Source: Helcobacillus massiliensis (lineage in GTDB: Bacteria; Actinomycetota; Actinomycetes; Actinomycetales; Dermabacteraceae). From it: a DNA stretch of 58,583 bases. The translations under genes and the position numbers were made by a program. The stretch lies in NCBI RefSeq assembly GCF_014191425.1, contig NZ_JACHWP010000008.1:1-58583 (forward strand). Direction: 5' to 3'. Below are positions 35,797-43,570 of the stretch, in pieces (within the stretch, counting starts at the first letter, position 1; every line of letters begins with the position of its first letter). The notes beneath the pieces were generated by a model. It saw nothing but the letters and a program-made list of their open reading frames with translations. It was not told where the DNA came from and ran no database searches.

Positions 35797-36815
<1,019 letters not shown>

Positions 36816-36819
<4 letters not shown>

Positions 36820-39894: not shown

Positions 39895-40668
39895 ATGATC
39901 CACTCCACCTGCACTGACGGCCTCGCCGAGATCGTCCTGGACGCCCCGCAGAGGCTCAACGCCGTCGACGCCGAGGCCCTGCACGAGTTGGTGGAATCCG
40001 TCGGCCGGGCGGAGGCCGACGGGGCCCGCGCGCTCCTCCTGCGCGGAGAAGGCAAGGGATTCTGCGCCGGCCGCGACATCGCGGGCGTGGACCCCAGGGA
40101 GGATGACGTGATCGGCTTCCTCGGCGGCCCCGTCACCGACGCGATGCGCGCCCTCGCCGACCTCCCCATCCCCACGTTCGCGGCGGTGCACGGCGCCTGC
40201 CTCGGGGTGGGGCTCGGCCTCGCGCTCGCCTGCGACGTCGTCTACACGGCGGAGGATGCGAAGCTCGGCTCACCGTTCAAGAACCTCGGCGCCACCCTCG
40301 ATTCCGGCGGCCACTGGCTGCTCGCCGAACGCCTCGGCACGCACCGCGCCATGGACCTCATCATCACCGGCGACCTCATCACCGGCGCCGACGCCGTGCA
40401 GGCGGGCCTGTTCTCACGCGCGGTCCCGTCGGCCGACCTCCTCGACTTCACGCGGGAGCGGGCACGGGCGGCGGCGAGCGGGCCGACGGGGGCCTTCCTC
40501 GCCTCGAAGCGCCTCCTCGCGCGGATCCGCGATGAGCGTCTCGGGTTCTGGGACGTGCTCGACCTGGAGAACCGCGCCCAGGCGGACCTCTGCGACACCG
40601 ACGACTATCGGGAGGGCTTCGCCGCGTTCCAGCAGAAGCGGCAGCCCCGCTTCACCGGTGGTCGGTGA
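39895..40668 (+). CDS. paaG: Crotonase, probably ring-1,2-epoxyphenylacetyl-CoA isomerase
   Basis: 257 residues. Crotonase folds GKGFCAGRDIAGVD and HGACLGVGLGLALACD; FKNLGATLDSGGHWLLAERLG has an Asp where hydratases have Glu, as in PaaG isomerases. It would turn the epoxide into the oxepin-CoA hydrolysed by PaaZ. AAGG seven bases before the ATG, 84 bp after paaE. A hydratase role cannot be excluded from sequence alone. Confidence 0.8.
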   Translation: MIHSTCTDGLAEIVLDAPQRLNAVDAEALHELVESVGRAEADGARALLLRGEGKGFCAGRDIAGVDPREDDVIGFLGGPVTDAMRALADLPIPTFAAVHGACLGVGLGLALACDVVYTAEDAKLGSPFKNLGATLDSGGHWLLAERLGTHRAMDLIITGDLITGADAVQAGLFSRAVPSADLLDFTRERARAAASGPTGAFLASKRLLARIRDERLGFWDVLDLENRAQADLCDTDDYREGFAAFQQKRQPRFTGGR

Positions 40669-40728
40669 CGGCCTGCTCGACCGGGTCGCCGGCGCACCCC
40701 GCGCCGCCCTGTATGCGCACGCCGACCG

Positions 40729-40868
40729 GCCGTGATGTGCGCGCTCGTGCAATAGGCCCGTGCACGCAGACGCACCCCGCCGCCACGTGACCTCTGTCAC
40801 CATAGTGGGCACCCGTTCAATGACGAAATGAGGAGAACCCCATGGAGACCTTCGAGTCCCTTCTCGCC
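40729..40868. repeat. 140-bp direct repeat, left copy: duplicated aldehyde-dehydrogenase promoter and first nine codons
   Basis: Matches 41676-41815 with two visible differences and no indels (offset 947 bp). It carries the promoter, Shine-Dalgarno and codons for METFESLLA. Weaker similarity continues about 25 bp further. Confidence 0.95.
40787..40800. promoter_or_regulatory. CRP/GlxR-like site (GTGA-N6-TCAC), copied at 41734-41747
   Basis: GTGACCTCTGTCAC lies 41 bp before the start codon in both repeat copies. A poor PaaR-like half-site (CCGTTCA) follows within 20 bp. Confidence 0.5.
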
Positions 40869-41303
40869 ACCCCGGCCACGACTGGCCGCCGAGCCCGGCA
40901 GCGTCGTCCGATTGGATGGCTCACTGCAGCCCTTCTCTTCGCCACACTTCTGACCCCTTCACCTTCGGCGGCATTTGCGAGCGAAGCACGGAGCCCCGAA
41001 CAGGTCACGAGCGCATCCAACACCGTGATCCAGACAGCATGGCTGCCCTATGATTACGCGAAGATCACCACTGCACAGAAATGCGAGAATCGAAGGAACT
41101 GGCTCATCAAGAACGTGGCCTGGATCAATTCCGGCAACTCCATGTGCCAGCGCTTTGTTCGGTCTCAATGCCCGACCACCTACTACTGGATGGTCATGGT
41201 CCAGGACAAAGGTGCATTCAGAAGCACCGGGGAACGCTCCAGCAGGAACTCAGCCCAACCGGCCGCGCTATCCGAAGGACACACGTCGACGCTCTCCTGC
41301 TGA
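40842..41303 (+). CDS. Small secreted four-Cys protein fused to the captured aldehyde-dehydrogenase start
   Basis: 153 residues. Residues 1-9 (METFESLLA) are identical to the aldehyde dehydrogenase N-terminus. A basic stretch GRRARQRRPIGW and a hydrophobic core LTAALLFATLLTPSPSAAFA then form a signal peptide cleaved near residue 47. The mature part is aromatic and holds four Cys (QKCENR, SMCQRF, SQCPTTYYW, final C). GAGGAG six bases before the ATG comes from the duplicated leader. No family recognised; a secreted antibacterial or surface peptide is possible but unproven. Base use is less G+C-rich than the neighbours. The last ~30 residues look disordered. Confidence 0.6.
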   Translation: METFESLLATPATTGRRARQRRPIGWLTAALLFATLLTPSPSAAFASEARSPEQVTSASNTVIQTAWLPYDYAKITTAQKCENRRNWLIKNVAWINSGNSMCQRFVRSQCPTTYYWMVMVQDKGAFRSTGERSSRNSAQPAALSEGHTSTLSC

Positions 41304-41336
41304 TCGGCCCACCAACTACCCCGGAGGAGACGTCCA

Positions 41337-41672
41337 ATGTTTATGACGGGCATCGCGCTTTTGGCAGACTTCACCGCTCTCGCCCCAGGTGAAGGCGGGG
41401 TGGGCGGTTTCAGGATGTCGCTGCGCAGCCAGTCGACCGCGCCTACTCGAGACACAAGCACCCCACCCGTCATCACTCTGGTCCACATATGCGACACCGA
41501 CAAGGTCGAACAGTGGGAGCAGACCGTCTCAGCCCTGGACGGCAGTGCAACGATCCACTACGCAGGCATGGCCGAGCTCGTCGGAGATCCACACCATGAC
41601 CGGTCGGTGATCGAGGTCGTCGCCGCTCAGGTCTCGCTGGACATCAGCGATGCTCTCCGGCTCGCACGATGA
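41337..41672 (+). CDS. Small cytosolic protein of the insert, function unknown
   Basis: 111 residues, no signal peptide. The C-terminal half (VITLVHICDTDKVEQWEQTV, then DRSVIEVVAAQVSLDISDAL) looks like a small alpha/beta domain. GGAGGAG lies seven bases before the ATG, so translation is credible. It starts 33 bp after the secreted protein on the same strand and ends three bases before the second promoter copy. It could be the secreted protein's partner (inference). Confidence 0.5.
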   Translation: MFMTGIALLADFTALAPGEGGVGGFRMSLRSQSTAPTRDTSTPPVITLVHICDTDKVEQWEQTVSALDGSATIHYAGMAELVGDPHHDRSVIEVVAAQVSLDISDALRLAR

Positions 41673-41675
41673 TCA

Positions 41676-41815
41676 GCCGTGATGTGCGCGCTCGTGCAAT
41701 AGGCCCGTGCACGCAGACGCACCCCGCCACCACGTGACCTCTGTCACCATGGTGGGCACCCGTTCAATGACGAAATGAGGAGAACCCCATGGAGACCTTC
41801 GAGTCCCTTCTCGCC
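41676..41815. repeat. 140-bp direct repeat, right copy (native aldehyde-dehydrogenase promoter)
   Basis: Same content as 40729-40868; here the reading frame continues into the full aldehyde dehydrogenase. Confidence 0.95.
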
Positions 41816-43192
41816 GCCGTCGCCGCCGATTCCGGCCGCGAAGTCCTGAACCCCGCCACCGGTGAACTGATCGGGCACGTCGCCCAGCACACCGAGAAGG
41901 ATCTCGACGCCGCTGTCGAGAAGGCCGCCGCCGCGCAGAAGGAATGGGCGAAGAAGTCCGATGAGGAGCGCGTCGCCGCCCTGATGAAGGCCGCCGACGA
42001 GGTCGAGCAGAACGCCGGCGCCCTCGCCGAGATCATCTGCCGCGAGCAGGGCAAGCCCCTGTCCGGCCCGGGAGCGAACTTCGAAGCGGGCGCCGTGGTG
42101 GGCTGGATGCGCGCCACCTGCGCCACCGAGCTGAAGCCCGAGGAGATCGACCTCGGCGACGGCAAGAAGGCCACCGTCCACCACCGCCCCGTCGGCGTTG
42201 TGGGCGGCGTCAACCCGTGGAACTGGCCCGCGATGATCGCCACCTGGCAGTTCGCTCCCGCGCTGCGCATGGGCAACTCCATCGTGATGAAGCCGGCCAG
42301 TGACACGCCGCTGTCCGTGCTCGCCACCGCCTACCTCGTCAACAAGCACCTGCCGGAGGGCCTGCTGACCGTGCTGACCGGTCCCGGTTCTCTCGGCGGT
42401 GCGATCTCCGCCCACCCCGGTTTCGCGAAGATCACCTTCACCGGTTCCACCGAGACCGGCAAGAAGATCGCCGAGGCCGCGTCGCAGAACCTCGCCCGTC
42501 TCACCCTGGAGCTCGGCGGCAATGACGCCGGCATCGTGCTCCCGGACGTAGACGGCAAGGAGATCGCCGAAGGCCTGTTCTGGGGCGCGTTCATCAACAC
42601 CGGCCAGACCTGCGCCTGCCTGAAGCGCCTGTACGTCCACGAGGACGTGTACGACGACGTCGTCGGCGCTCTCGTCGAGGTCGCGAAGCAGATGCCGATG
42701 GGTGACGGCATGGACGAGAAGAACGTGCTGGGCCCGCTCACCAACGAGTCGCAGCAGAAGATCGTGGCGGACCTCGTGAATGACGCGAAGAACCGCGGCG
42801 GCAACGTGCTGTTCGAAGGCGAGGTCGCCGGAGGCGATAAGGGCTTCTTCCACCCGCTCACCCTCATCGACTCCCTGCCTGCCGACGCGCGCCTCATCAC
42901 CGAGGAGCAGTTCGGCCCGGCCCTGCCGATCATCAAGTACAGCGACGTGGACGATGCGATTGAGCAGGCGAACAGTGTGGAGGTCGGCCTCGGCGCATCC
43001 GTGTGGTCGAAGGACCCCGCGAAGGCCGCTGAGGTGGCGGCCCGCATCGAGGCGGGCACCGTGTGGATCAACTCCCACGGCACGATCAACCCGATGGCGC
43101 CGTTCGGCGGCATCAAGCAGTCCGGTTACGGCGTGGAGTTCGGCGTGGAGGGCCTGAAGGCGTTCACCGTTCCGCAGGTGATCCACAGCTGA
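41789..43192 (+). CDS. NAD(P)-dependent aldehyde dehydrogenase, probable phenylacetaldehyde dehydrogenase
   Basis: 467 residues. Catalytic Cys275 in NTGQTCACLKR and Glu241 in LTLELGGND are 34 apart as in the family. VNPWNWPAMIATW and FTGSTETGKKI bind cofactor. Its place between paaG and tynA, and the need to oxidise the TynA product, point to phenylacetaldehyde (FeaB role); the nearest relatives by motif are broad succinate-semialdehyde-type enzymes, so substrate is inferred. The promoter has been duplicated upstream. Confidence 0.85.
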   Translation: METFESLLAAVAADSGREVLNPATGELIGHVAQHTEKDLDAAVEKAAAAQKEWAKKSDEERVAALMKAADEVEQNAGALAEIICREQGKPLSGPGANFEAGAVVGWMRATCATELKPEEIDLGDGKKATVHHRPVGVVGGVNPWNWPAMIATWQFAPALRMGNSIVMKPASDTPLSVLATAYLVNKHLPEGLLTVLTGPGSLGGAISAHPGFAKITFTGSTETGKKIAEAASQNLARLTLELGGNDAGIVLPDVDGKEIAEGLFWGAFINTGQTCACLKRLYVHEDVYDDVVGALVEVAKQMPMGDGMDEKNVLGPLTNESQQKIVADLVNDAKNRGGNVLFEGEVAGGDKGFFHPLTLIDSLPADARLITEEQFGPALPIIKYSDVDDAIEQANSVEVGLGASVWSKDPAKAAEVAARIEAGTVWINSHGTINPMAPFGGIKQSGYGVEFGVEGLKAFTVPQVIHS

Positions 43193-43380: not shown

Positions 43381-43436
43381 CGAAAGCGACTTTTTTGCAG
43401 TATGACCGCGGTCGGTACGCAAAAAAGTCACCCTCG
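43381..43436. repeat. Palindromic element A, copy 3 (56 bp)
   Basis: Left arm identical to copy 1; right arm gcaaaaaagtcaccctcg has three changes. The centre holds the perfect palindrome GACCGCGGTC flanked by five bases on each side. Confidence 0.9.
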
Positions 43437-43505
43437 ATTCAGCCGCCGGGCCTCTGCCTCCGGACGGCCCCGGGACAACGGCCGCTTGCGTCCGACCGAC
43501 AGCCG

Positions 43506-43570
43506 TCTGGCCCCTCCTCCAGCCACCTGGCCCCTTCTCCAGCCGCCTGGCCCCTTCTCCAGCCGCCTGG
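43506..43570. repeat. Three 20-bp tandem units plus a partial
   Basis: cctggccccttctccagccg is exact at 43526 and 43546; the unit at 43506 has three changes and a partial follows at 43566. Confidence 0.8.

Follow-up and report, generated by a model that had tools for sequence, protein, structure and literature searches.

The locus analyzed here raises a simple question: How did the 5′ end of an aldehyde dehydrogenase gene come to be present twice on the same strand, with two small genes lying between its copies? We analyzed the whole stretch of Helcobacillus massiliensis DNA part of which is given above (58,583 nucleotides, hereafter the window), the relatives of the two small genes, called P1 and P2, and the relatives of the dehydrogenase.

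Layout of the duplicated segment and the insert

The features concerned are as follows.

39895..40668, + strand: PaaG-like enoyl-CoA hydratase/isomerase, the nearest gene upstream of the repeat
40729..40868, + strand: direct repeat, upstream copy, with the 5′ untranslated region, ribosome site and first nine codons of the aldehyde dehydrogenase
40787..40800, + strand, and again 41734-41747: GTGAC-N4-GTCAC palindrome, possible operator, exact in the two repeat copies only
40842..41303, + strand: P1, 153 aa, begins with METFESLLA, which is joined to a signal-peptide-like segment followed by a Cys/Trp protein; relatives in other Micrococcales
40869..41675, + strand: insert between the repeat copies, 807 bp, GC 0.61, single copy in the genome
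41337..41672, + strand: P2, 111 aa, preceded by a ribosome-site-like stretch of its own; belongs to no named family, and frames lying behind P1 in other genomes are related to it
41676..41815, + strand: direct repeat, downstream copy, 138/140 the same, running into the intact aldehyde dehydrogenase gene
41789..43192, + strand: aldehyde dehydrogenase (Pfam Aldedh), the gene with the duplicated 5′ end

The repeat pair comprises 140 bp with 138 identities and a start-to-start distance of 947 bp, which agrees to the base with an earlier note on this DNA. The two mismatches (upstream/downstream copy) are G/A at 40782 and A/G at 40804. All exact 30-mer repeats of the window fall within this pair, a looser search found a few weak repeats at about 10.7-13.7 kb, and the query 40700-41830 matched this locus only in the own genome (2.6 Mb, 28 contigs). 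The different base use ascribed to the two inserted genes was also seen: GC is 0.61 in the insert against 0.70 in the window, and third-position GC is 0.69 in P1 and 0.74 in P2 against 0.92 in the dehydrogenase and 0.93 in the PaaG-like gene.

As had been claimed, neither a transposase nor inverted ends were detected. P1 and P2 matched no transposase, recombinase, or integrase family, no inverted repeats of at least 20 nt were present at the insert ends, and the duplication, at 140 bp, is not short; the insert therefore does not have the character of an insertion sequence or transposon. What the layout does resemble, in keeping with the earlier note, is a single crossover, where an insert has on either side one copy of a segment with homology to the target. 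A tRNA-like GTTCAA within the repeat, picked out by eye as a hint of an att site, was dropped.

The repeated segment may act as a promoter, and a simple promoter scan of 40600-41900 gave no sigma-70-type site. For the GTGAC-N4-GTCAC palindrome, three matches were found with one mismatch allowed, compared with 3.6 expected, and a role as operator is only a suggestion.

Nearby genes include a PaaA/PaaC-type gene (35797-36819), an amino-acid permease, a copper amine oxidase, and an AraC-type regulator, a neighbourhood that would fit breakdown of phenylethylamine and phenylacetate. Both the dehydrogenase and the PaaG-like gene fell below every NCBIfam cut-off shown, and their exact reactions are presumably those suggested by their neighbours. 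Downstream of the dehydrogenase lie an inverted repeat at 43385-43432 (GACTTTTTTGC ... GCAAAAAAGTC), by eye perhaps a two-way terminator, and a 20-nt unit in three tandem copies at 43500-43559.

Is this arrangement ancestral? Dehydrogenase orthologues were compared in 13 relatives, all from genera other than that of the window: 12 in a sample of 99 genomes of the order and one, G002, in a set of 47 genomes of the family. The flanks were read for 1.5 kb on each side (about 7 kb in G002). P1 or P2 occurred beside the orthologue in none of the 13; among these relatives, then, the arrangement is not an ancestral one. The PaaG-like gene was likewise beside none of them; the junction of the two genes was thus absent with or without insert, and an empty site was found in none of the 13. 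Of what the earlier note had foreseen for relatives, the lack of an ancestral arrangement stands for these 13, and the uninterrupted junction was seen in none of them.

P1 and the dehydrogenase start

P1 opens on the repeated ATG and METFESLLA is read in frame, as the earlier note had stated. Ten N-termini of dehydrogenase orthologues from other Micrococcales were available, the closest being METYDALLAS, LETYDALLAS, and MSTDLTTFAGLLS. Since these resemble METFESLLA, the nonapeptide is native to the dehydrogenase, and the assignment of the repeated 5′ segment to this gene holds. No other in-frame ATG, GTG, or TTG occurs in P1 between residues 1 and 62; the rarer starts present in frame are ATT at 24 and CTG at 37. 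P1 therefore takes its start codon and ribosome site from the duplicated segment, unless a rare start is used. At the level of sequence the 5′ end of P1 is a real capture, and expression of P1 may in turn be under catabolic control. The promoter capture proposed earlier thus stands for the start codon, which comes from the dehydrogenase segment; the promoter itself is putative, the simple scan having found no site.

METFESLLA is followed first by basic and then by hydrophobic residues, and after these by a run of small ones, an order that we take to be typical of a secretion signal; P1 is probably secreted. Ten residues were invariant in a six-row alignment of the family (W67, D71, C81, R84, C102, C110, P111, Y115, W116, and C153), and their presence means that the window P1 keeps the family core. 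The structural model had a mean pLDDT of 61.4, with about residues 63-126 above 50 and a confident strand-helix-strand-strand core. It gave no Foldseek hit with E < 1, and the best VIA-align Z, 3.9 for CutA, is too low for a fold to be assigned.

The second gene has a GGAGGAG stretch ahead of its ATG, and its product probably lacks a signal. The P2 model is of low confidence (mean pLDDT 52.5), with the element order strand-strand-strand-helix-strand-strand. Single-stranded DNA-binding proteins (SSBs) were among its Foldseek rows, none of which had an E under 0.4, and the model is too poor to use. In sequence searches bearing on a reading of P2 as an SSB/OB-fold protein, neither single members nor the profile gave an SSB or OB match.

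Relatives of P1 and P2 in Micrococcales

Relatives of P1 were detected at E 1.1e-10 or better in six other genomes: Zhihengliuella salsuginis (G288), Brachybacterium halotolerans (G011), G016, G395, G336, and G891. Among 396 genomes of the order, 13 matched at E 0.01 or better, one being the own genome; of the 12 foreign ones five were kept, and the other seven (E 2.7e-4 to 0.008) were discarded as chance. Of these seven, five were inspected and overlap longer, unrelated-looking frames, the remaining two being L018 and L023. Among 394 genomes of the class the only match was the own genome, and in the genus of G336 only G336 itself matched among 44. The counts were two of 398 in the family of G395 and three of 295 in the family of Z. 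salsuginis, each including the named genome. G139 is a doubtful relative (E 2.3e-5), and the match in G1165 (E 3.4e-4) was rejected because it overlaps the start of a longer unrelated frame. Two members seem to be damaged: in G016 the P1 frame has an upstream stop, and the G891 copy ends early, misses the last cysteine, and was left out of the six-row alignment. In G139 (L047, 6561-7463) the divergent P1-like secreted-type protein is followed by a frame with a weak, below-cut-off DUF6301 hit (E 0.029).

The same-strand P2-like frame follows P1 after 33 bp in the window, 18 bp in G395, 12 bp in B. halotolerans, and 0 bp in Z. salsuginis, where a second, overlapping frame comes behind it. G016 also has a P2-like frame behind P1; on inspection none was recognised in G336 and G891. 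With a profile of the P2 relatives, the window P2 ranked first of 592 sequences (E 1.9e-6). When each relative was left out in turn, four of the five ranked first and the B. halotolerans frame 44th, so the latter belongs to P2 by position only. A search with the window P2 alone in 198 genomes of the order found P2 itself plus six weak matches (E 0.003-0.009); it missed the frames that stand behind P1 in B. halotolerans and G016.

Neither P1 nor P2 gave anything above cut-off or with E < 0.03 in Pfam, NCBIfam, PADLOC, or PHROGs. Against Pfam, six members of the P2 family had no match and six members of the P1 family had weak hits of single members, the best at E 0.014. Searching the PDB by sequence with either protein gave nothing meaningful. 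With P1, tblastn found a single phage match, at 14%, and no plasmid match, and pattern-based scans of viral contigs found nothing. P1 is thus an unnamed secreted-type Cys/Trp family, rare and sporadic in Micrococcales, with a P2-like gene usually behind it. Because the composition differs and the family is sporadic, a foreign origin of the insert, which the earlier note had also proposed, is supported by sequence evidence.

What surrounds P1 in the other genomes? In B. halotolerans (L031) P1 and its P2-like frame belong to a unit of 2.8 kb with an exact 37-bp copy of a tRNA-Met gene end on each side, the repeat pair as aligned being 83.9% identical over 87 columns. In G395 (L032) the two frames occupy a 2.6-kb unit between exact 36-bp tRNA-Pro ends. 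The 5.1-kb unit with P1 in G336 (L034) is bounded by 113-nt copies (94%) of the end of a tRNA-Pro gene plus its flank; a tyrosine recombinase and an AbiEii-type gene are also encoded there. For G891 (L046), two istB 3′ ends of 65 bp (86%) enclose P1; they are 1.5 kb apart and could belong to two neighbouring IS copies. The loci of G016 and G139 have no bracketing repeat, and that of Z. salsuginis stops at a contig edge and was excluded from the count. Repeats therefore bracket P1 in four of six testable relatives (three tRNA gene ends, one istB 3′ end), or five of seven with the window.

Two further observations concern these loci. In L034 (7189-12370) the AbiEii-type toxin, a weak AbiEi-like partner below cut-off, and the P1 relative make up a compact island of defence type. 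In L046 (1802-2653) a 284-aa frame overlaps the end of the P1 relative; its GRL/GRW repeats look OB-like by eye, and it has no Pfam match.

As a control we used ten sequences (the window, seven P1 loci, and two others) and counted repeats with an alignment score of at least 36 and copies at most 6 kb apart, a rule under which the five bracketed loci are all recognised. Other repeats bracketed 0 of 194,590 control positions for 800 bp and 55 of 198,590 for 400 bp; at a score of 30 the counts were 2,065 of 194,590 and 2,465 of 198,590, respectively. Two weak bracketing repeats in random-looking places, L033 8005-8038/12352-12385 (76% over 34 nt) and L032 6041-6072/12126-12157 (75% over 32 nt), were taken as chance. 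Since four of the six relatives are bracketed and none of the 800-bp control positions is, P1/P2 looks like the cargo of small integrated DNA units. The tRNA-end units of three relatives suggest site-specific integration, a process other than the one proposed below for the window.

Possible origin of the arrangement

Single-crossover (Campbell-type) integration through a homologous segment leaves the order homologous segment, insert, homologous segment. The window has the same topology, with the difference that no plasmid or phage backbone was recognised in its insert. We consider recombination with a donor carrying the 5′ segment and P1/P2, with single-crossover topology, to be the best explanation, at a probability of about 0.5. 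A foreign two-gene accessory cassette P1/P2 would have entered the phenylacetate/amine catabolic region by recombination, the donor molecule carrying the cassette and, in addition, the 140-bp 5′ segment of the dehydrogenase. A single crossover within this segment would then give the order 5′ segment, P1, P2, 5′ segment, dehydrogenase. The dehydrogenase would stay intact behind one copy, and P1, with its own start lost, would be read from the other. The crossover, its RecA dependence, catabolic control of expression, and clean loss through recombination of the repeats are all presumed steps. No donor molecule was found among phages, plasmids, and viral contigs. As the copies differ at only two bases, a donor copy and a single duplication event inside the own genome fit equally well; with two differences in 140 bp, either the duplication already has some age or the copy derives from a strain that differs slightly.

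Could a recombinase have aimed at the 5′ end of the dehydrogenase, its gene being lost since or acting in trans, so that the repeats are attL and attR of a decayed element? A cis-mobilizable element (CIME) is one that has lost its integration and transfer genes and kept attL and attR, according to the parts of PMC5704250 cited here. The likeness to what those parts describe lies in a small unit between direct repeats that holds cargo genes and no recombinase, and the relatives at tRNA genes fit it well. Repeats of 36, 37, and 113 nt derived from tRNA genes enclose them, and one such unit keeps its tyrosine recombinase. The own genome has three matches to the phage-integrase family, one of them, weaker, on contig C5 beside a frame that looks helix-turn-helix-like by eye. 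With respect to origin from an ICE, IME, or phage, P1 and P2 have no family match above cut-off, and the unit of one relative has a tyrosine recombinase. The window itself does have direct repeats at both ends, whose att role is only putative. It departs from the CIME of the cited parts in three respects: the 5′ end of a protein gene serves as target, the repeats measure 140 bp, and the gene start on the left is fused to the cargo. Because the insert has no recombinase gene, its repeat is long for an att core (generally 8-60 bp for tyrosine recombinases in the same parts of PMC5704250), and P1 lacks its own start, so that the left join cuts the cassette and is not an element end, a site-specific event at the window locus is less likely. 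The repeat gave only weak matches of 11-22 nt with the C5 recombinase region, and on the whole we find a decayed att-flanked element unlikely. On contig C5 itself (L064, 5966-8879) the tyrosine recombinase is followed by two frames, and the 19 kb read contain no tRNA gene.

Repair of a long-stagger double-strand break, filled in and closed around a foreign fragment, would make duplication and insert in one step and accounts for the exact repeat ends, the lost P1 start, and the absence of mobile-element ends. In the four species sets reported in the cited part of PMC2884548, 10-18% of variable segments have direct repeats at their flanks, and the window shares with these a short accessory segment and direct repeats permitting its loss. 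However, 66-94% of the repeats at such segments are under 30 bp in that part of the source, and the window has 140 bp of regulatory and coding sequence. A Ku gene was not found in the own genome (the Bacillus subtilis control was positive), which disfavours Ku-dependent joining, and the bracketing of the relatives is left unexplained. We rate break repair somewhat lower than the att-flanked element. More doubtful again is a tandem duplication of the dehydrogenase 5′ region in which a cassette later replaced the first dehydrogenase copy, for example by transformation with unequal pairing. The excerpt of PMC3784515 used here reports that transformation can yield merodiploids through alternative repeat pairing, with duplications mostly far larger. 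This course needs two events and a join exactly nine codons into the gene, and no further remnant of a first dehydrogenase was seen, there being no other exact 30-mer repeat in the window. An assembly artefact, either two alleles or a misjoin, is conceivable for a draft of 28 contigs and highly improbable here: the copies differ at two bases, the flanks are coherent genes, and P1 keeps the family-invariant residues.

Recombination with a donor is thus our preferred reading, and the observation that started the analysis is confirmed, its interpretation as capture being partly supported. Promoter capture by gene fusion, a term from experimental evolution, likewise has one gene gaining the expression signals of another; the difference is that the donor gene in the window keeps a complete copy of its own signals. 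We also considered a wider, quite speculative possibility, which we doubt: that P1/P2 are an unnamed class of very small mobile cassettes that repeatedly enter host gene ends (tRNA, istB, dehydrogenase 5′ end), leave a duplicate of the gene end, and as a rule carry no recombinase, having here taken over a catabolic translation start with the gene left intact.

The kinds of event discussed are known; the novelty lies in the two genes as a pair and in their recurrent location between direct repeats. The locus offers a clear natural example of a start-less foreign gene placed behind host signals with the host gene unbroken, and it points to an unnamed, sporadic family of secreted proteins that, together with a partner, is found on small repeat-bracketed units in Micrococcales.
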